Shown: piece by piece, positions 13,301 to 24,121 of the stretch
Position numbering within the stretch: position 1 is the stretch's first letter
Layout: the number at the start of each line of letters is the position of its first letter
Assembly: GCA_022376515.1 (NCBI GenBank)
Contig: WTXI01000010.1
Location: forward strand, 930,001 to 994,000
DNA length: 64,000 nt
DNA from: Lactifluus volemus
Lineage: Eukaryota; Basidiomycota; Agaricomycetes; Russulales; Russulaceae
Direction of reading: 5' to 3'
Program-made: the position numbers and the translations under genes
Notes under the pieces: model-generated
Told to the model about the DNA's origin: nothing
What the model saw: only the letters and a program-made list of their open reading frames with translations
Database searches by the model: none

Positions 13301-15901
13301 TCGAGTTCCGTAATATAATCCTTGGCATCCTCCAGTTCGCGGTCGCGTTCTTGCAATCTGACCTCTTGTCCAGAAAGCTTGCGCTCGAGATCCTCTAGCG
13401 CGGTCTCCTTTGCTTCTAAATCACCTTGAAGTTTTCGAGAGCGCGATTTTTCATCCCGAAGACGCCCCTCTGCCTCGGCCACATCATCTTCGAGTCGCTC
13501 AACGTGAGATCGCAAGTCGTGCAGTTGGGCATTGCTCTTGACCAGCTTCTGGTTGGCTTCGTGAAGTTTGCCGCCAAGCTCGCTGCGATCTCCAAGCGTC
13601 TTCTCGGCGTTTTCTGCCCTCATCCGAGCAAACTCGGCTTCCTCCTCGACGCGCTTCAGCGCCTTCTCCAGCTCCTTGAGCAACCTATCCTTCTCGATGG
13701 AGTCGGCCGCGGCAGCCTCCGCCTTCTCGACTTTGGTCTCCAAGTCGCGGATGATGCCTTCGACGCCGCGCTCGACCTCGACCATGCGTTCGCGCCAACG
13801 TTCCTTGTCCCTCGACCGTTCGGCCTGCTCAGCATCGAGCGCCCCGATCGCCTCGTCTCGCTCTTGTTGACAATCGCGCAACTCCCCGCGCAGCGACTCA
13901 AGCTCTGCTTCCATTTCCAGCTTTTCCTCCATCCACCCTTCTCCGCCCGCGTCCTCCTTCACGTCTCCCAACGGCGAGCCAATGTCGCTCATACGCCGAC
14001 CGGCACTCGACCGTCGGCTACCTGCGCCGCCAGCGAACATCTGCTGTCGAACGAGCTCCATTTCCTCTTGCAAGGCCGCATTTTGCTCCGCAAGGCCCAT
14101 GTTCTCCTGACGCAGGATATCAACTTGACCCGCCAGGTTCTCGCTCTCTTCCTGTAGGCGTCGATTGAGGCCATGTAGGTACGTATTCAGCTTTCCGGCG
14201 TTGAAGCGGCCAATGCCGTGGCCCCCGACACCTAAACCCATGACATGGTCGAAGGAAGCGTTGGCACGTGGATGTGTGGTGAGATCATGCGAAGATGCGG
14301 TACTAATAAATGATGCTCCGCCTCCAGCGTCCTCAGACTCAGACGCTGAGGCAGTCCAGCCTCTTGAAAGAGGGTGAGAGAGCCGGCCCATCGTGCGCGT
14401 CCGCTGTCGCGGGGCGGGTGTGAAACTGGCGAAAGCCGCAGTGAGCGGCCTAACGGTGGCGACCGATGCCTGCGACTGTTCCTGGGTCGGTTGACCGAAT
14501 GAACCTGGCGAAGCAGAATCGCCCTCTTCCTCGTCAATTGAAGCTGAGAGTGAAGTGCGCTGAGGATGCGGTGTGGGGTGGGCGAACCGTGGACGTGCAG
14601 TGGAGTTGATAACATCAATGAGGAAGGAGCGACGTCTGGAAAATGGCGTGGTCAAGTCCTTGTTGGTCGAGACACTGTTATCAGGTACAACTGCTGGTGT
14701 CGAAGGGAGACCGGGTACGAGGAAGCGGGGTCGAGGGCGAGGCGGGAATGCAGGCGTTGGCGTGAACATGACAGAAGTTACGGGAGAGGATTGCGCCACC
14801 GAGAGCGTTGGTGGAGACTGCGATCCTGCACGACTAGACGAGACGTAGGATGGAGTAGCAGAAGGAAAATAAGGGTGGGCTGTCTGCTCTTCGGAAGAAA
14901 AGGTAGGATTTGGTTCATCCTCAAGCTCATCAGAATTGGTGACGCTTTCAACTGGTGTAGCTTCTTCAGCAGGGTGGTGCTCATCATGAAGCACCTGCTC
15001 CGAGTCTTTCTCCAAGTCTGGTGACTCAGAGACGTCGCTTGGAAGGGGTAAATCACTCAAAGACGGAGGCTCGCCATCATCTAAGCTCTCAGGAGGGATG
15101 ACTGAGAGCACACTGAGCGACGGAGCATTGTTCAGTTGCGCAGGTCCAGCCGACCTGCTAGAATGAGGAGTGGAATTAGAGGAAGATGATGACTGGGAAA
15201 GGGTCCGCGTGAGAGACGGGGTACGCATACGAGGGATAGGTTTTCGAAAAGACACGTTTCGCATCTTATCAAAGGGACTGGTCTATAGTTGATCGTTGAG
15301 TGACGGGGTTGGAGGAGAAAGATGAGGACTATATGCACACCTTGGGCTCCGACTTGAGGCTGACGGAATAGCTATACTTTGAGTGACCGTGTCCGGTCAT
15401 GTCCTCCAATGGATACGGAGACCCGGGAGGTTGCAATGCCTCTTCAAGCGACATGTCGTGTTCATGACCATCCTGAGCATCCTCCAAACCGACCTTGTTA
15501 GGTGGTGAGTACGATGCTATCGCACTGACATCATCAAAGCTGATCTCGGTCCGCTGGATAGATGTGTGTGGCGAGCGCTTCGATAAACTCCCTGCTGAGG
15601 ATGAGAATGCAGACCCAGAGCGACTGGCACGACTGGCGATGGACTGTGCAAAACGTGCGGTACTGGAGGTGGAGCCACTTGACTGCAGGCGAAAGGTTGT
15701 CTGGGCTGAGAGTGGCGCGGGAGTGGATTGCAAGGGAGAGGTGGGATTGAGATTGGATTGATGACTCTCCTCTGAGGTGGTAGTGACGTTGACATCGTTT
15801 GAGTCTTCGAAAGCTGGGACCTCGGGCAGAGAAGGCAGATCATTTTGCTCATCTGCCTCTATGCGGCGCCATATTCTTGACGGTGTTTCGAGCAGAGCCA
15901 T
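10359..15901 (-). CDS. pcp1: Pcp1/Spc110/pericentrin-like spindle pole body protein with PACT domain
   Basis: Large multi-exon gene on the minus strand, roughly 1,600 residues. Exon 1 is 15901-15341 and starts with TPSRIWRRIE. Exon 2 is 15282-12700 (861 codons) and opens with a Ser/Pro-rich segment, changing at about 14,200 to long heptad-repeat coiled coil that continues through exons between 12,626 and about 10,930. The C-terminus (10,900-10,360) carries the PACT signature: HKDECKGLIVHIHYLKAKF..RMDLVYQKQYLLIL, then RKTLRSVARGVVFLQRI and ASQIWRDQCAPRPAVLAALEDV. PACT anchors pericentrin, Pcp1 and PcpA to the centrosome or spindle pole body through calmodulin, and these proteins recruit the gamma-tubulin complex. 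I do not see a secure CM1 motif. Exon borders between 12.6 and 10.4 kb were not all resolved, so the span is firmer than the protein. The start lies 106 bp from a transposon insertion. Confidence 0.85.
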
Positions 15902-16007
15902 TATGCATCAAGCGAGGCAGCGACGCCAAAACGGGCCCGGCCAATACAACCGTCACTCACGTGATCGCGTTTAATCCCTCTGTTAAAGCACGTGCCAAGG
16001 TCGCGCT
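15902..16007. promoter_or_regulatory. Left half of an ancestral divergent promoter, ends in 8-bp TSD
   Basis: Sequence between the Pcp1 start codon (15,901, minus) and the transposon. The last eight bases (16000-16007, GTCGCGCT) are repeated at 22620-22627 just past the other end of the transposon. Removing the element and one TSD copy leaves about 126 bp between two divergent start codons. Confidence 0.75.
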
Positions 16008-16026
16008 AGGACCCCTGAAACTACAC
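16008..16026 (+). repeat. Left terminal inverted repeat of the P-like element
   Basis: AGGACCCCTGAAACTACAC; exact reverse complement of 22601-22619. The identity ends abruptly at base 20, marking a 19-bp TIR. Confidence 0.92.
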
Positions 16027-16040
16027 TGGACCGGCTGATC

Positions 16041-16196
16041 CAGGATTTGGATAAAATTTAGGTGATTTTTAAGAAATGCCTGAGGTCAATGCGGATAAAT
16101 ACTACTATTTTGGCTAAAATTTGCCCAAATGCATGGTCTGAAATTGCGGATAAAAATTAGGTCTGGTGACACAGGCCTGATGACTTTGCGGATAAA
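16041..16196. repeat. Subterminal GCGGATAAAAA-type repeats, left
   Basis: Several copies of a (G)CGGATAAAAA motif and a longer module (AAAATTTGCCCAAAT..AT) occur here and again at about 22,477-22,575 in the same orientation. Subterminal repeats of this sort serve as transposase-binding sites in P and hAT elements; that role is inferred. Confidence 0.6.
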
Positions 16197-16450
16197 AACC
16201 ACCAGTTCTGTTGAGGCATTGTGGCAAGGCACGTGCGGCAGAGAAGTGTGCTACACCTGGGCTGCGGAAATAGTGTGGACGGCCGGCATATGTTATCAAT
16301 GGGCATTTGTGTACTATTTGCATCCACATCGTATGCTAGTTGTACTATGTAACTAGTACTCGTAGGGCTAGGGTTGAATCAACAGAATCACTACATCTCA
16401 CCCAACCCAATCCAATCCAATCCAACGACTTGAACTGTTAATATCCTATT

Positions 16451-19400
16451 ATGCACAACTCAGACATTGAGGACAACGACCCTACACCATTTGTGCTCGA
16501 AGAATGGATAGGGAAGGGACGCCAGCTTCCAAACGCGATAGACACCCCCAGTGGTCTCGAAGAGCACTTCTCAATGCTCAGAGAAGTCCCCGATGACATC
16601 AAACACAAGTGCTACCCCAATACGGACCTCAGCATCGAATCATTTATCAAATATCAACTTCCAAAGCGTACCTATGCCCTCCCAGGGCTTGACGCATTGG
16701 GATGCTTCAACCAACGGGAGCCCAATGCTGATCTGGACATGCACACGACGCTTCCCCTTCCATCTCGCCAATTTGTTGAAAAGCTTGATACCCACTTCCG
16801 GCAGGCAACGCTCAATGATATGCACTCGGTGATAAACCCTGCATATCCAGGTTCCTACCTCCCACTCTGGTTAGGTCAATACTGGAAGGACATGTGGGAG
16901 ATACACGACTTACAGGAGACCTGGAAAAGGGGATTGACGTGGCTGGAAGACAAGATGCATGGAGGGGCATCAGAGACGGAATATGGCATTTACAAGGAGG
17001 CTCACAAACTCACCAACACTCTTCGATGGTCTGAAGTAACCAATATTGCTGGAGCACATGGCACGACAGATATATTTGCGCGCTACCTTTCTGACAACAC
17101 CTGGATGAGTTCAACGCAAATTGATATCATGTTTGCCCATATTTCGGACCGTATTGAACAAGACGAAACACTGGACTCACTAGTAACCGTGGAAACGCTT
17201 CGCCTTTGGACCGAGATTGAGAAGGCCAAAAATATTCAGTACTTCGATGGGCGTCCACCAACCTTCTTGCGCCGCCTCGAGAAGCGTATCCTAGATGGGG
17301 AAATCGATTATCTTGTATTCCCTGTGCACTGGGACGCACAGAAACATTGGTTGACATTCAAGCTGGATTTTCAGCTGAAAGAACTGTCTTACGGTGAGCG
17401 ACATATCCTAGCGGCAACGGTCACAGTAATACTCACCAAGCACCGACTCGGACAGGTGATTCTCTTGCACACAAATTAGGCCCCCCAACAGATGTTATCA
17501 GGAAATTGCAGTGGTGGTTGAGAAAAAGGATCAACGGTCCATTCAAGAGTGTTGGCGACAGACTTGATCATGGAAGGCAAGACGACACATCCAATTGCGG
17601 AATTGTTTGCGCAAACACAGCGGCATGCGACATCTTTGAAGACGATGACCTATGGACCACTGAAGCAAAGGCTCTTGAGAGGGGTCGGTGGTTTGTTGTG
17701 CTCGTTAAAAAGCATATAGACGATGTTAGTTTTTCAAGTTCTCCATGATGAAAGTTACAACTCACCGGATATTAGGTGAACAATGACCCAGATCGAAGAT
17801 CGTATGCCATTAATAGCATCACAGCCATAGATCCATCACGACGCACTGGCGTTTGTTCCATTGCGAATATCCTAAACCCACCTGACTCGGAGACGAATTT
17901 GCCAAAGCATGAAGGTGTCGCTCGGGCTAACAACGTTGCGGAAGAGGCTGACAGCGCTGACAAATCAACTTCAGCGGTGACGGTGGTTGTTACGCCGCCG
18001 CACTCTGGCACTAACACTGCCAGTGCGGTCGTACATCCTTTTGACGAAAATACACACCACGATGTCTTGTTATATCCTCTGTTGGCATCCGAGCAGGCTG
18101 AGGGAACAAAGAAGAGACGAGCACATCCCCAAGAATCAAACCGCGTAGACCAAAACCGAAAGAGGCCAAAAGTTACTCTTGTGGATGACGTATCTTCTCA
18201 GCGTACTGGTCGATCAAAATCAGCTATCTGGGAGCGCCTTCAGAACGAAAAGTACCAGAGTGGACAAGTACGTGCTGGAGACAACAGACTTGTGCGTTTC
18301 CGAGAAAAAATTCTGCGACTTGATAGGCTCGCGTGTATCCAGGACTCAAAACATGTCCGTCACTTCTTGTGTGGAAAATCGTTGGTTATGAAGTACCCGT
18401 TTAACACCAAGAACTTTGAGACACACATCTCAAATTGCAAGGGTACTCCGAAATCAGCAAAGCTTCCAGGCGGTGGAATGAAGCGTATCGACGCTTATTT
18501 TCATACAACTTCATCACGGTCTCTGCCAGCGGCACCGGCTCTACCTTGTCCTGGTCTTGATGCCTCTATGTATTCTATTGTCAGGGTGTACTTGGATCGA
18601 ACTGGAGCAGGGGGGGCGGTGCCCCATCTGTGACTAAAATCTCGCTCGAGCTCTATGGAAAGCGCTATGGCCAACTTTCGGACACACGCAAGAAGCATGT
18701 CAAAACTGCCCAATGCCATGAATGGACTTGGCGGAATGACCACAACGCTGACAAGGTATTCTCGACCAACTGCAGTAAAGTGGGGTCTATCTCAGCGCTG
18801 GGATCTGGAAGCAGCTCATCGCCAGGACCTTGCCCTGCCTGCTGCTCGGTGCTTGATAGCAAACCTTTTAGAAATGCGTGCAACGTCCCTCAACCTCCAG
18901 ATGAGAACTACAAATATGTCAATATGGTGTATCGTAACAAGAAGCTTGCTATGTTATTTGGCCGATGTTCTGGGCTGCGTAAAATCATTGAAAACGAAGT
19001 ACGTTACAGTCGCCTCCAGTTTGATCATGCCGCCGTGATGGCATAGCTAATTATCCATAACTAGACCATATCTCCTCTGCTGCAATATGTCCACGGGATA
19101 CTGTCACGCGAACATAAAGGCGATAATCTGTTCGCATCGATAATTGAAGCTGTGGCCCTCCGAAAAGACAAGGAAACCCGTGGAGTTGGGATGCAGAAGA
19201 TGCGCTATGCTCCAGATCTGATTGAGTTCTCGCACATTCTCTTTACACACAGTCCCAAGGCCTATGAAAGATTAAGGGACGTATTAACACTGCCCAACCC
19301 AAGGACACTTCGGTAAGCTCACTTGGGCCCTCTTGTATGCATTCGGACACTCATTTATGACTCGGAAATCAGTATGCAGCGTGCACGCCAACCACGGTTT

Positions 19401-22383
19401 CCTATTGGCATACAACCTCGAACATTCGAACTGGTTAAAGAGACCCTACAGCGACTTCAGTACGATGGTCCCATTGGCCTAAGTTGCGACGATACAAAGC
19501 TTCTGGCATCGTTTCGCCCGTACTATGATGAAGATCGCAAGGGCTACTTTCTTATGGGCCATATAGGCGAACCTTATCAGATTCTCAATCATGAAGACTT
19601 TCAGCTTGTGATACAAAATAAGGAGCTTCAGAAGGCAACAAAGGTATGATATCTGTTCATCTGACTATCTAAAAAGCTGATCATTCATTAGCTTCGCTTA
19701 TTTTGTCTTCAAATCCCCATACCAAAGATCCCGACCATCATTGTTGCCGCATTAGCAATCCCAGATAACCTTGAAGCGAATGATCTACTCAAATTTACAT
19801 GGGACATATTAACTGGTCTCCGTCGTTGCAACATCAGGGTCGCTTCTTATGCAACGGACGGCAGTAATGTCGAGCGCTCGGTTCAGGAGAAGCTTGAGGC
19901 ACATGCCGACCAAATCACGGAGACGCGATTCAGACATCCCGCAGATGATGGATCTATTCACGATGACATCGTTGTTCCCCTCCTGTGGTTTGGGGACCAG
20001 GCCATGGCGATTCTCCAAGACCCAAAGCATCTTCTTAAAACATGCCGCAATAACAGCTTTTCTGGTGCTCAAGTTCCGATCCTTCCCAATAACCCCATTC
20101 TCTTCTCCGACATTCGTGCAATGGCTTATAGTGATTCACCCCTCTATTTACGAGACGTTGAAAAGGTGGACCGTCAAGACGATAACGCCGCAACCCGACT
20201 CTTTAGTGGCGCAACACTAGAGTGGCTTTCGAAGAAGGGCCCGGACAAGAGGGGCCTTATTTGCTTCTTATTCGTTTGCGGTGAAATGATCGATGCATAT
20301 CAGAACCGCTTTCTCCCAATAGACGAGCGTGTTCAGATGATATTACGCGCGCATTTCTTCTTTGAGCTCTGGGAGGTGTTTATCGAAGTTGGTGGCTATG
20401 CTAAAAGGAAGCATTTCTTGTCGCCTCAGTGCATCAAGATCACAAAGGTGTTAATCCGTGGCTTCCTTCAACTTGTTATCATTTATCGTGATCACGAAGG
20501 AGGCCGTCCCTTACTCCCTTGGCTTTTGGGTACAGAGGCCGTCGAACACGTCTTTGGGATGTGTCGCCAAATTGTCAAGGATTTTACGATGCTCGATTTC
20601 CATCTCATGATACCTAAGCTTTTTATTAAGCTTCGGGAAGCCTTCCTTTCGTCCTTGTCACCCGATGGAAAAGCTCGGGCCAGTGGTTATTCTCACACTC
20701 ATACCGACACTCGTGGGATTGACCTTGTCGCGCTCTCCACCTATCCTACAAACAAGGACATTCAGGAACTTGCGAATCGTGCCTATAATGAAGCTCACTC
20801 TCTCTTCGTTTATCTTGGACTTACTGCAGAACAGCTATATTGCTCTACTGTGCCGTCACACCGCCCTACACATTTGCCATCTATTTCGAGCTGGTGGGAC
20901 CTCTCTGAGCCGGAAACGTCTGATGATGACTCGGGATCGGAATGCGGTTCATTGGAATCAAGTGATGACTATCAAGCGATGCTAGACAGACTTGAAGACT
21001 CTGACCTCTCTCTGAGACATGAGAATGAACTCATGGACTACAGGTTTGCAGCCGTTGCACTAAGTATCGATGACCAAACATCCATGTATGTTGTTGCGGT
21101 GACAATTTCGGTACTGGCCTGAATGGCATTGACTAATATCTGCCCTTTCAGATGTAATTTGCCAGAGCTCGATGGCGAAGCGATGACGGAAGCTTACTCA
21201 GATGATGCGGCTCATATTGCATCTGTTCTTCTGGCAGCTCATGGTGATCGCCTAGCAAATTCCCTCCCAGCAGTCAATGTATTGGAACCGGAAATCAATG
21301 TGTACTCATCTGCCTCAAAGATTGACATTTCCGAACTGTTTCACCTTCGTTATCAGCATCAGACCAAACAGGCCGAAACTGGAGTTCGCAAATTCGGAAA
21401 TTTGTGCAATTCCAAGTCCGAGTCAGCTCAGATGGACCAGCACAAAGCAAAGCCGCTTACTGAACGCCAGCAAATCCTTCGAAGATTTTCCGAGATTATC
21501 AAACAACAAAACGACCGAGGTATTGGGACGGGGTTGGAGAGAGCTGCACGCTGGAAAGCGACTGCGACAGGAAATTCCGCAAATGCAGCCATGGCAGCTA
21601 GTGCGGCATCGACAAAGGTCAGTCTGAGTCAAATGACCTTTTACGTTGCGTTGCCATGTTACTTCGCATTTTCTCACCAAATGTCGGGTTTTGTTTTTTT
21701 CTCAGGCCCTCACAAAACGAAAGCAAATATACCGCAACGTTGGACTGCCCGACATCATAGGGGACGCGCATGTCAATGCCCTAAATGTTTTACGTGCTGC
21801 TGATCCAAATTTCCCGCAAGCTGTGCCCCAGACTCGGATTGAGCATCGCCCGGCTACAGGAGGATATGGCTTTGCCATGTCGTCGCACAAAGGCCTTGGA
21901 CTTGTGCTATGCAAAGGTGTGTTTTGTTGCCATTGCCCGAGTCTGACATACTGACAACGCTCGTAATAAGTGCTTACTGTGTATTCAAAAGGGGGCGGAT
22001 CCCACGGCAAACACGGATACGTTGACAACGTTGGCACCATAACTGCGGCTTCAAACATTGTTATTCAAGTCTTTCAGTATCATTTCGGCTCCCATTTCTA
22101 TGACAAACCGCATATGAATCATCCATTCCCTCAGCTTTACTGCTTCGACATTATTCCTTCCACTCTGTTCCTTTGTGCTCTACAGAGTCCACCTGTCATA
22201 CCAGATGACCGACAGCCAGGCATTGAGGTTTCCCCACAGGACATCGCTCTCTTCAAAACGCTCAGGAAACAGCAAAAAGACATTGAGAAGGCGATCAAGG
22301 TATTCAACAAGCGGAAGGGCTCTTCTGCAGCCCAGGCAGGCCCAGCAAACTGTGACTCGGAGGAAGAGAATGAGGACGCGTAG
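16451..22383 (+). CDS. Transposon protein: Ulp1-like C48 cysteine protease joined to P-like transposase (nine exons; one G-run frameshift)
   Basis: Exons 16451-17393, 17456-17724, 17776-18998, 19065-19312, 19373-19643, 19692-21085, 21152-21617, 21706-21916 and 21971-22383. The sum is 5,438 nt; one extra base is needed at a seven-G run at about 18,607-18,613, giving 1,812 codons. The N-terminal region (residues about 280-370) has the Ulp1 layout: His299 in KHWLTFKLDF, Asp316 in SYGDS, Gln356 and Cys362 in DDTSNCGIV. A Cys/His cluster at about residues 590-620 (HFLCGKS...HISNCK) may bind DNA. The transposase half shows candidate acidic residues in SCDDTK (about 934), YATDGSN (about 1041) and TEAVEHVF, plus DPKHLLKTCRNN. 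The C-terminus is acidic. All introns are 48-89 nt and in phase, so apart from the G run the gene looks intact. Whether protease and transposase are one polypeptide is inferred from frame continuity across exons 2-3. Confidence 0.78.
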
Positions 22384-22476
22384 TTAATTGGACTCAGATG
22401 TACTAATGATGCACTATATCAACTCGTACGCATACTTTGTCCCAAAATAGATATATATATGATGCCTGATCCGTAG

Positions 22477-22575
22477 TGCGGATAAAAATTGGTGTCTGGC
22501 CCAGTCTAGGTGAGGATTGATCCCAAAACCGGATAAAATTTGCCCAAATTCATGCGGATAAAAATCGCAAAAATA
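22477..22575. repeat. Subterminal GCGGATAAAAA-type repeats, right
   Basis: Contains GCGGATAAAAATT, CCGGATAAAATTTGCCCAAAT and GCGGATAAAAATC, matching modules near the left end (16,041-16,196) as direct rather than inverted copies. Confidence 0.6.
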
Positions 22576-22600
22576 TGGTCATTTTAGATCAGGCCTCCTG

Positions 22601-22619
22601 GTGTAGTTTCAGGGGTCCT
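22601..22619 (-). repeat. Right terminal inverted repeat of the P-like element
   Basis: Exact inverted copy of 16008-16026. Its outer end lies 28 bp from the ATG of the RING gene at 22648. Confidence 0.92.
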
Positions 22620-22647
22620 GTCGCGCTCGAGGTCTGACAACACTACC
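22620..22647. promoter_or_regulatory. TSD copy plus remaining 20 bp upstream of the RING gene
   Basis: 22620-22627 is the second GTCGCGCT target duplication. Only 20 bp of original sequence separate it from the ATG at 22648, so the RING gene's promoter and most of its 5' UTR must now come from transposon DNA. Confidence 0.75.
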
Positions 22648-24121
22648 ATGAGCGACGCGGATTGTCCAATATGTATGAACCACTTCAAATTTCAAGATAT
22701 ACGCTCTCTTCCTTGTGGTAAATCTCGAAAAAGATTATCCATTGATCACAACGTTTATCGTCGTCCGCAGGACACACGTATTGCTCCGCTTGCATTGATG
22801 AATTGATTGGGAGACCATCTGCCGAGGATGGTATCTCCAGATGCCCGGAATGCCGACAACAGTTTCAATTTGATGACATCAGACGATTGTTCATCAACTC
22901 TTCCAATAGAAATCGTAATATCTCGTCACCACAAGCGACTTCATCAAGCGTCTGCTCTTCTGTTGAGACACAAGGCTTCGTAAGGCAAGCAAGGTTCATA
23001 GCGAGGCGCCTAGGAAGGATCAAGGCCGAGTCACCTGTACAGAGCCTCAAGACAGCGGTAGATGTTATCAAACATGTCGCGACAATCCAGTGCAAAGAAG
23101 CGCAAGTACGCCCTCATGAACCCCTTCCTCGTACCGTCCATCTTACATTCTCTCAAAACTTGCTTTGCTATAGGAAATCCTGTGGAAGGCCGTGCGAGAA
23201 TTTTGGCTTAGCCTGGTCCCTTACTTTGAGCAATTAGATCGATGCGAAGAATTGCAAAAGGCCATAACTGGCCTACAGCAACGTATGGACGTATTGGACC
23301 AGACTTGTACTAGTCTTCGCTCGGAGGTAGAAAAAGAGCGCAATCAAGCACAGCGATATTTCCACACGTTAAAAGACAAAGATCAGGAGATAGCAGAACT
23401 AAGGATGGCGCTTCGTCGAGTTGAGGATGAGAACGAATGGGAGCGACAACGGCACCATACCGTCCTTGCACATCTCAGAGCATCTGTGTGTTTTGTTCCT
23501 GTCAAGTCGACTTTCTCTGTTTTTCCGTGATACTCATTGCTTGAACTAATACAGACGATTAAGCAGCGTGCTCAAATCAAGCAACTCAGAAAAGACCTTA
23601 AAACTCGCGAGGAAGAGACCGCAACGAGTGGATTTCAACGGGAAGAGGAGTCTCTCATCATTGAACCCGATGTAGCATATAATAAAGAAAGATCTCATCG
23701 TCTCGACATCTACAATGAGGATAGTCTCTCCTCGAAATGCCACGAGGTAAGTCAAGCCAGAACACGGGTTCAGACCCAGCCCTTCTAAGCCTATTTTCCC
23801 TAGTCATCTCACGAAGCAAGTACACACGCTGTCGGCCTCGACGACACCTTTTCTGGAGACGACCTCCCTGACAATTGCCCATCGAAACAGCCCATGTCTC
23901 CACCTACCCAATGGAAACGGCGTTCCCACACAGCGGATCCGCCGGAAATTGACCACCCATCGCCTGAGCGCCCGAAATTTGGTTCAGATTGGAATTTGAA
24001 AGGCCCACGACGGGCGTTGGCAAGGTCCAACTCTGAGGTGCTCCCATTTCCTTTGGACGCTCAGGGAAGACCAAAAGGACTACTCAAATACGGTTCACGA
24101 GTGCGCGTGAAAGGGAGGTGA
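22648..24121 (+). CDS. RING-finger / coiled-coil protein, probable E3 ubiquitin ligase (five exons, 408 aa)
   Basis: Exons 22648-22717, 22771-23105, 23174-23485, 23555-23746 and 23804-24121 sum to 1,227 nt with the frame closed. A C3HC4 RING lies at the very N-terminus: CPIC..., then LPCGHTYCSAC and RCPEC, completed only by splicing exon 1 to exon 2. Residues about 150-290 form a long coiled coil (LQQRMDVLDQTC...EVEKERNQAQRY). The tail is disordered and basic (GRPKGLLKYGSRVRVKGR). The RING plus coiled-coil layout resembles TRAIP-type ligases, but the specific substrate is unknown. The start codon lies 28 bp from the end of the P-like transposon, so transcription may depend on element sequence. 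It is convergent with VPS25 (180-bp gap). Confidence 0.82.

Follow-up and report, generated by a model that had tools for sequence, protein, structure and literature searches.

Can a mushroom genome harbor a transposon of a kind that textbooks describe from animals, and can such a transposon carry a protease of its own? The question is raised by a 64,000-nucleotide stretch of Lactifluus volemus DNA (contig WTXI01000010.1, positions 930,001 to 994,000; hereafter the window), in which an element of 6,612 bp spans positions 16008-22619. P elements are a textbook animal transposon, and the reviews covered here frame them through Drosophila and THAP9. The locus is best explained, with good though not full confidence, as a mushroom P-type transposon coding for one predicted protein that combines a protease, a helix-turn-helix (HTH) domain and a transposase. 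As read from residue patterns and fold models, this protein would comprise, in order, an N-terminal Ulp1/SENP-type protease, a Cys/His cluster, the P HTH and an RNase H core with an insertion. The Cys/His cluster, which is conserved, stands in the place of the animal THAP domain and presumably binds DNA.

Ends, copies and transposase of the element

The element is bounded by terminal inverted repeats (TIRs) of 19 bp that pair without mismatch, and it is flanked by an 8-bp target site duplication (TSD). When up to three mismatches are allowed, the window contains two TIR matches, against a mean of 0.03 in shuffled sequences, which far exceeds chance. Close to the ends, the motif GGATAAA recurs as direct repeats (four on the left and three on the right, on the + strand only); six occur, counting both strands, in the remaining 57,388 bases of the window. 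A sister copy (L004, see below) has six such sites, three by each end, and three of the four left repeats are retained in its subfamily. These repeats are candidate transposase-binding sites.

The element has moved recently, making 8-bp target duplications. Copies were searched for in the 62.4-Mb genome assembly. A near-identical one, on C610, differs from the window copy by 2 substitutions over 5,850 compared bases and has 762 bp of the gene absent. A sister subfamily, 83% identical to the window element, includes three complete copies of 6,634 bp (L003, L004 and L005), with pairwise differences at 1 to 12 sites, and older or broken copies are also present. All eight copies having both ends show perfect 8-bp TSDs, each one distinct: GTCGCGCT, GAGATACC, GTGATAAG, CTCCCCCT, GCTAGTAG, GCGACGCA, ATGGTAAC and ATGCTGTC (GCGACGCA being read after allowing for one base absent from its copy's left repeat). 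This count leaves aside short derivatives on C445, C481, C107, C611, C26, C281 and C112, as well as L049 and L052, in which only the left and only the right end, respectively, is recognizable; the two short derivatives checked, L050 and L051, showed no TSD. The internally deleted copies L044 and L045 have one deletion junction in common but occupy different sites with different TSDs, so that a deleted form has itself moved. Deleted P-like elements have likewise moved in zebrafish (PMC7776569).

Two further features of the copies can be mentioned. Inside L044 (C290, 995-8874) lies about 7.9 kb of other sequence. All 12 differences between L003 and L004 are transitions, as is the sole difference between L004 and L005, for which cytosine deamination or a process resembling repeat-induced point mutation is possible.

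The gene, established by comparing the window copy with L004, consists of nine exons and eight introns, all of the latter GT..AG (Table 1). In L003, L004 and L005, the exons join into a single frame of 1,811 amino acids with no internal stop; the Drosophila P and vertebrate THAP9 proteins have about 750. In the window copy, the frame is broken at a G run (18610-18616), leading to a stop at 18633, and the downstream frame is open until the stop at 22383. The near-identical C610 copy has the same G run, which means either that the broken form also moved or that both copies contain an assembly error. The window copy itself is probably not autonomous, and any movement of it would depend on enzyme supplied by the full-frame copies. 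As the run codes for part of a conserved GGG motif, this conserved motif also renders the gene slippage-prone. A first-pass annotation of the window had described an intact element with perfect 19-bp TIRs, an 8-bp TSD and a nine-exon gene whose frame closes except for one G run, and had proposed a genome-wide count of copies and TSD lengths. The ends, the exons and the break were all recovered, and TSDs of 8 bp were counted at all eight two-ended copies; the word "intact" holds for the element ends and fails for the reading frame of the window copy.

The element can be assigned with high confidence to the cut-and-paste DNA transposons of the P (P/THAP9) superfamily. Its P HTH profile (PF12017) matches window exon 4 with an expectation value (E) of 8.9e-9, passing the cut-off, and is the sole Pfam match on the whole L004 protein. 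Relatives were collected by a core-region search, which lists 120 of 154 proteins and admits only those of 0.55-1.75 times the query length; subsets of the 120 were used for Pfam (31), for a tree (47 plus the window family, 48 rows) and for fold alignments (45 and 47). PF12017 matches 12 of the 31 at E<=0.1. Among the 120, D933, D1040 and E1269 are aligned in 103 (D933 and D934 both being candidate catalytic Asp), and [C/D]xxH is found in 117. In the predicted model, a strand at 311-317 is followed by D318xxH321. This corresponds to the signature given for P in PMC7776569 and PMC8230255, namely an Asp-Asp-Glu (DDE) triad together with [C/D](2)H immediately following strand 5. The models also suggest an RNase H fold split by a P-type (GTP-binding) insertion domain, and the TIRs and TSDs of the eight two-ended copies are those of the superfamily. 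The P/THAP9-like transposase claimed in the first-pass annotation is therefore supported by the HTH, by the fold with its insertion and by the D/D/E and [C/D]xxH residues.

Searches of PDB sequences gave no P match with single-sequence phmmer and no Drosophila P at E<=10 with profiles. Because sequence searches are too weak here, the assignment relies on fold, signature and HTH. No THAP family match was obtained in the 31 relatives (E<=0.1) or in the L004 protein; as THAP domains are restricted to animals according to PMC7776569, having one is here regarded as a trait of the animal representatives, not of the superfamily as a whole. Distantly related P homologues had already been reported beyond animals, in an amoebozoan and a chromalveolate (PMC3985635). 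Drosophila P and THAP9 resemble the mushroom element by their P HTH, by an RNase H core into which a large domain is inserted and, as described in PMC7776569 and PMC8230255, by their D/D/[C/D]xxH/E signature, 8-bp TSD and moved deleted derivatives. The mushroom element differs from them by its fungal host, the lack of a detected THAP domain, its N-terminal Ulp1-type protease, an extra C-terminal domain, a core unmatched by sequence alone and its TIRs (19 bp, against 31 bp in P; PMC7776569). Concerning the C-terminal region, P0052 shows at about 860-990 (in rough correspondence, about 1640-1770 of L004) a well-predicted strand-rich domain with no clear P-transposase counterpart.

Protease region, selection and relatives

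The N-terminal region is predicted to adopt the Ulp1/adenain fold, and presents His, Asp, Gln and Cys in order as His299, Asp316, Gln356 and Cys362, the residue numbers of the first-pass annotation being correct. The family profile aligns with yeast Ulp1 (E 2.8e-13); single-sequence phmmer against PDB retrieves only bacterial Ulp1 relatives (E 0.86-0.99). Modifier proteases are its nearer fold matches. The protease fold and the His-Asp-Gln-Cys set are common to yeast Ulp1, human SENP1-5 and NEDP1, with an identity of about 12-19% over the fold alignments, whereas the mushroom protease is preceded by a region of about 195 residues of its own. Among the 120 listed relatives, His is aligned in 103, Asp in 97, Gln in 102 and Cys in 101, the remainder being mostly gaps; all four are found in 89, and both catalytic sets are complete in 80.

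Codon comparisons indicate that both halves of the protein are under purifying selection. Between the window subfamily and its sister, third codon positions differ by 23.8%, first by 8.0% and second by 7.6%; of 507 intron sites compared, 113 differ. The ratio of nonsynonymous to synonymous substitution rates (dN/dS) is 0.175 overall, with values of 0.217 for residues 1-195, 0.104 for the protease (196-410), 0.424 for the linker (411-590), 0.230 for 591-820, 0.078 for 821-1300, 0.197 for 1301-1450 and 0.196 for 1451-1811. As the constraint on the protease nearly equals that on the transposase core, the element seems to need its protease.

The fusion is widespread among the listed relatives, all 120 of which carry fungal names that we take to be those of Agaricomycetes. 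The protease region occurs in the same predicted protein in 104 of the 120, a count that overstates the share of fusions and is not a frequency, since the length filter favors long proteins; the middle region is present in 117 and the C-terminal region in 103. In the tree, rooted at the midpoint with no outgroup, fusions with all four protease residues lie on both sides of the deepest fork (Rhizoctonia, Ceratobasidium and Favolaschia versus Schizophyllum and Panaeolus), which fits a single early gain under that root. This distribution is read as that of a P-superfamily lineage devoid of THAP to which an Ulp1-type protease was added at an early stage of mushroom evolution. The sister of the window family is a Panaeolus protein (support 100/100), two Lactarius proteins being distant, and this grouping could reflect horizontal transfer or old parallel lineages. 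The Lactifluus family clusters with Agaricales elements, the Lactarius elements lying on another branch. A further search, using a core profile and confined to the 7,997 candidates that had most words in common, gave 293 proteins, of which 120 are listed; its organism-named rows are presumably Agaricomycetes, and it neither shows nor excludes P relatives outside fungi.

Several observations weigh against a single P-type protein with a working protease. Outside the HTH, there is no sequence-level match to Drosophila P, and Foldseek also returns Hermes (E 1.1e-4), as expected from the common RNase H fold. The exclusion of the KDZ (Kyakuja, Dileera, Zisupton) superfamily relies on profiles, because we know of no KDZ structure in PDB; for that reason, a fold search without KDZ hits is no evidence against this superfamily. 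The one-protein gene is a prediction from DNA frames and gene models. As for the protease, Pfam Peptidase_C48 (PF02902) has no match on the L004 protein, reaches only E 0.13 on window exon 1 and matches just 12 of the 31 relatives (E<=0.1; best 6.5e-11). Some relatives are devoid of a catalytic residue (all four are present in 14 of 19 rows inspected singly), and the Sistotremastrum row aligns Asp where His is expected. The genome search with PF02902 gives six places, none in this element family; two of the six, on C127 and C132, each lie within one long frame.

Proposed mechanism and competing accounts

In the proposed mechanism, the transposase would bind the GGATAAA subterminal repeats, pair and cut the ends, probably using a purine nucleotide as its cofactor like P, and integrate the element with an 8-bp stagger. 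Subterminal binding, end pairing, cutting and integration with this stagger are established for P, which also requires GTP and cuts the donor with a 17-nt stagger. The fused protease would reach transposon DNA together with the transposase, and could there free the transposase, chromatin or repair proteins of SUMO- or NEDD8-type modifiers. This modifier removal, for which the chances appear about even, is favored by analogy with the proposals made for Ginger1 (PMC2836005). Ginger1, Mutator-like and Crypton elements are also DNA transposons coding for an Ulp1-class protease, to which a role in transposition has been proposed (PMC2836005 and PMC3212892). Their transposases are unrelated to that of the mushroom element, and the protease is C-terminal in Ginger1, in contrast to its N-terminal position here. 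That the element depends on its own fused protease to move, whether by modifier stripping or by a GGG cleavage releasing the transposase, is a tentative proposal, slightly less assured than the role itself. If true, the element brings along its own counter-silencing or maturation enzyme, and the fusion would be older than the divergence of the Agaricomycete lineages sampled and would have persisted ever since. The mushroom lineage makes testable an old guess, that transposon-borne modifier proteases (Ginger1, Mutator-like, Crypton) aid transposition, and its three near-identical full-frame copies constitute a ready test system. Among the open-access papers listed in literature searches, covered by titles and abstract openings with Repbase outside this scope, none describes a P element with an Ulp1 protease or one in mushrooms.

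The main rival to modifier removal is self-processing, in which the protease would mature its own polyprotein, for example by cutting at the GGG motif between linker and HTH, freeing an active transposase. Clan-CE proteases process polyproteins in some large DNA viruses, and a scan identified G678-G680 as the sole conserved Gly-Gly site. Nevertheless, a Gly-rich motif can be structural, this one lies in a longer conserved block (CPGL...YLxRT..GGG..S), and modifier proteases are the nearer fold matches, which makes self-processing unlikely.

It is considerably less probable that the transposon contains two genes, a protease (exons 1-2) and a transposase (exon 3 on), expressed as separate transcripts and joined by gene finders. 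A protease region is not detectable in 16 of the 120 listed relatives, many predictions consisting of the transposase alone appear once shorter proteins are admitted to the search, and the L. volemus database protein P0121 stops shortly after the protease. These short proteins may, however, be gene pieces as well as real protease-free elements. Three full-frame copies maintain a single frame that passes from exon 2 over a GT-AG intron of 51 nt and through exon 3 (1,221 nt), and most of the listed predictions fuse both parts, though the search favors long proteins.

Retention of the protease fold as an enzymatically inactive binding or scaffold domain is slightly more improbable still: 31 of the 120 rows are without all four catalytic residues, but the 16 with no detectable protease region bear on this count, the catalytic positions are otherwise well aligned apart from gaps, and dN/dS is low in this region.

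Some KDZ elements are known to carry an Ulp1 domain. That the element belongs not to P but to a fungal superfamily already known, such as KDZ or hAT, is the least credible account, for although KDZ elements occur in mushroom fungi, with 8-bp TSDs likewise made by Zisupton (PMC12730594), and are common in this genome (71 profile matches), the transposase family differs by profile. For KDZ, PF18758 is absent from the 31 relatives (E<=0.1) and none of the 71 genomic matches lies at element copies; for hAT, the 31 relatives give no Pfam match at the same threshold and the core fold is not closest to a hAT transposase. Placement in either superfamily, the outcome named beforehand as contrary to P, was thus not seen, on profiles for KDZ and on Pfam and fold for hAT.

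Feature coordinates and insertion site

Table 1. Features of the element, in window coordinates.
Feature	Position	Strand	Content
Left TSD copy GTCGCGCT	16000..16007		8 bp, flanks element
Left TIR AGGACCCCTGAAACTACAC	16008..16026	+	19 bp
Left subterminal direct repeats GGATAAA	16049..16196	+	Starts 16049, 16093, 16148, 16190
Exon 1	16451..17393	+	N-terminal region and first half of Ulp1-like protease; His299 17345-17347
Exon 2	17456..17724	+	Second protease half; Asp316 17458-17460, Gln356 17578-17580, Cys362 17596-17598
Exon 3	17776..18998	+	Variable linker, Cys/His cluster, conserved CPGL...GGG motif
Exon 4	19065..19312	+	P-element HTH domain PF12017; profile match in genome search 19191-19313
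Exon 5	19373..19643	+	First RNase H strand, SCDDTK motif; D933/D934 19488-19493
Exon 6	19692..21085	+	D1040 19857-19859, DxxH (D1094 20019, H1097 20028); P-type insertion domain; E1266 20535, E1269 20544
Exon 7	21152..21617	+	
Exon 8	21706..21916	+	
Exon 9 and stop codon	21992..22383	+	End of strand-rich C-terminal domain, charged tail
Right subterminal direct repeats GGATAAA	22480..22562	+	Starts 22480, 22531, 22556
Right TIR, inverted AGGACCCCTGAAACTACAC	22601..22619	-	19 bp
Right TSD copy GTCGCGCT	22620..22627		8 bp, flanks element

P elements favor promoters. A RING-finger-like gene (22648-23237) begins 20 bp beyond the right TSD, so that the element lies immediately 5' of the start codon of a host gene. 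On the other flank, a minus-strand open frame (15329-15907) reads away from the element.
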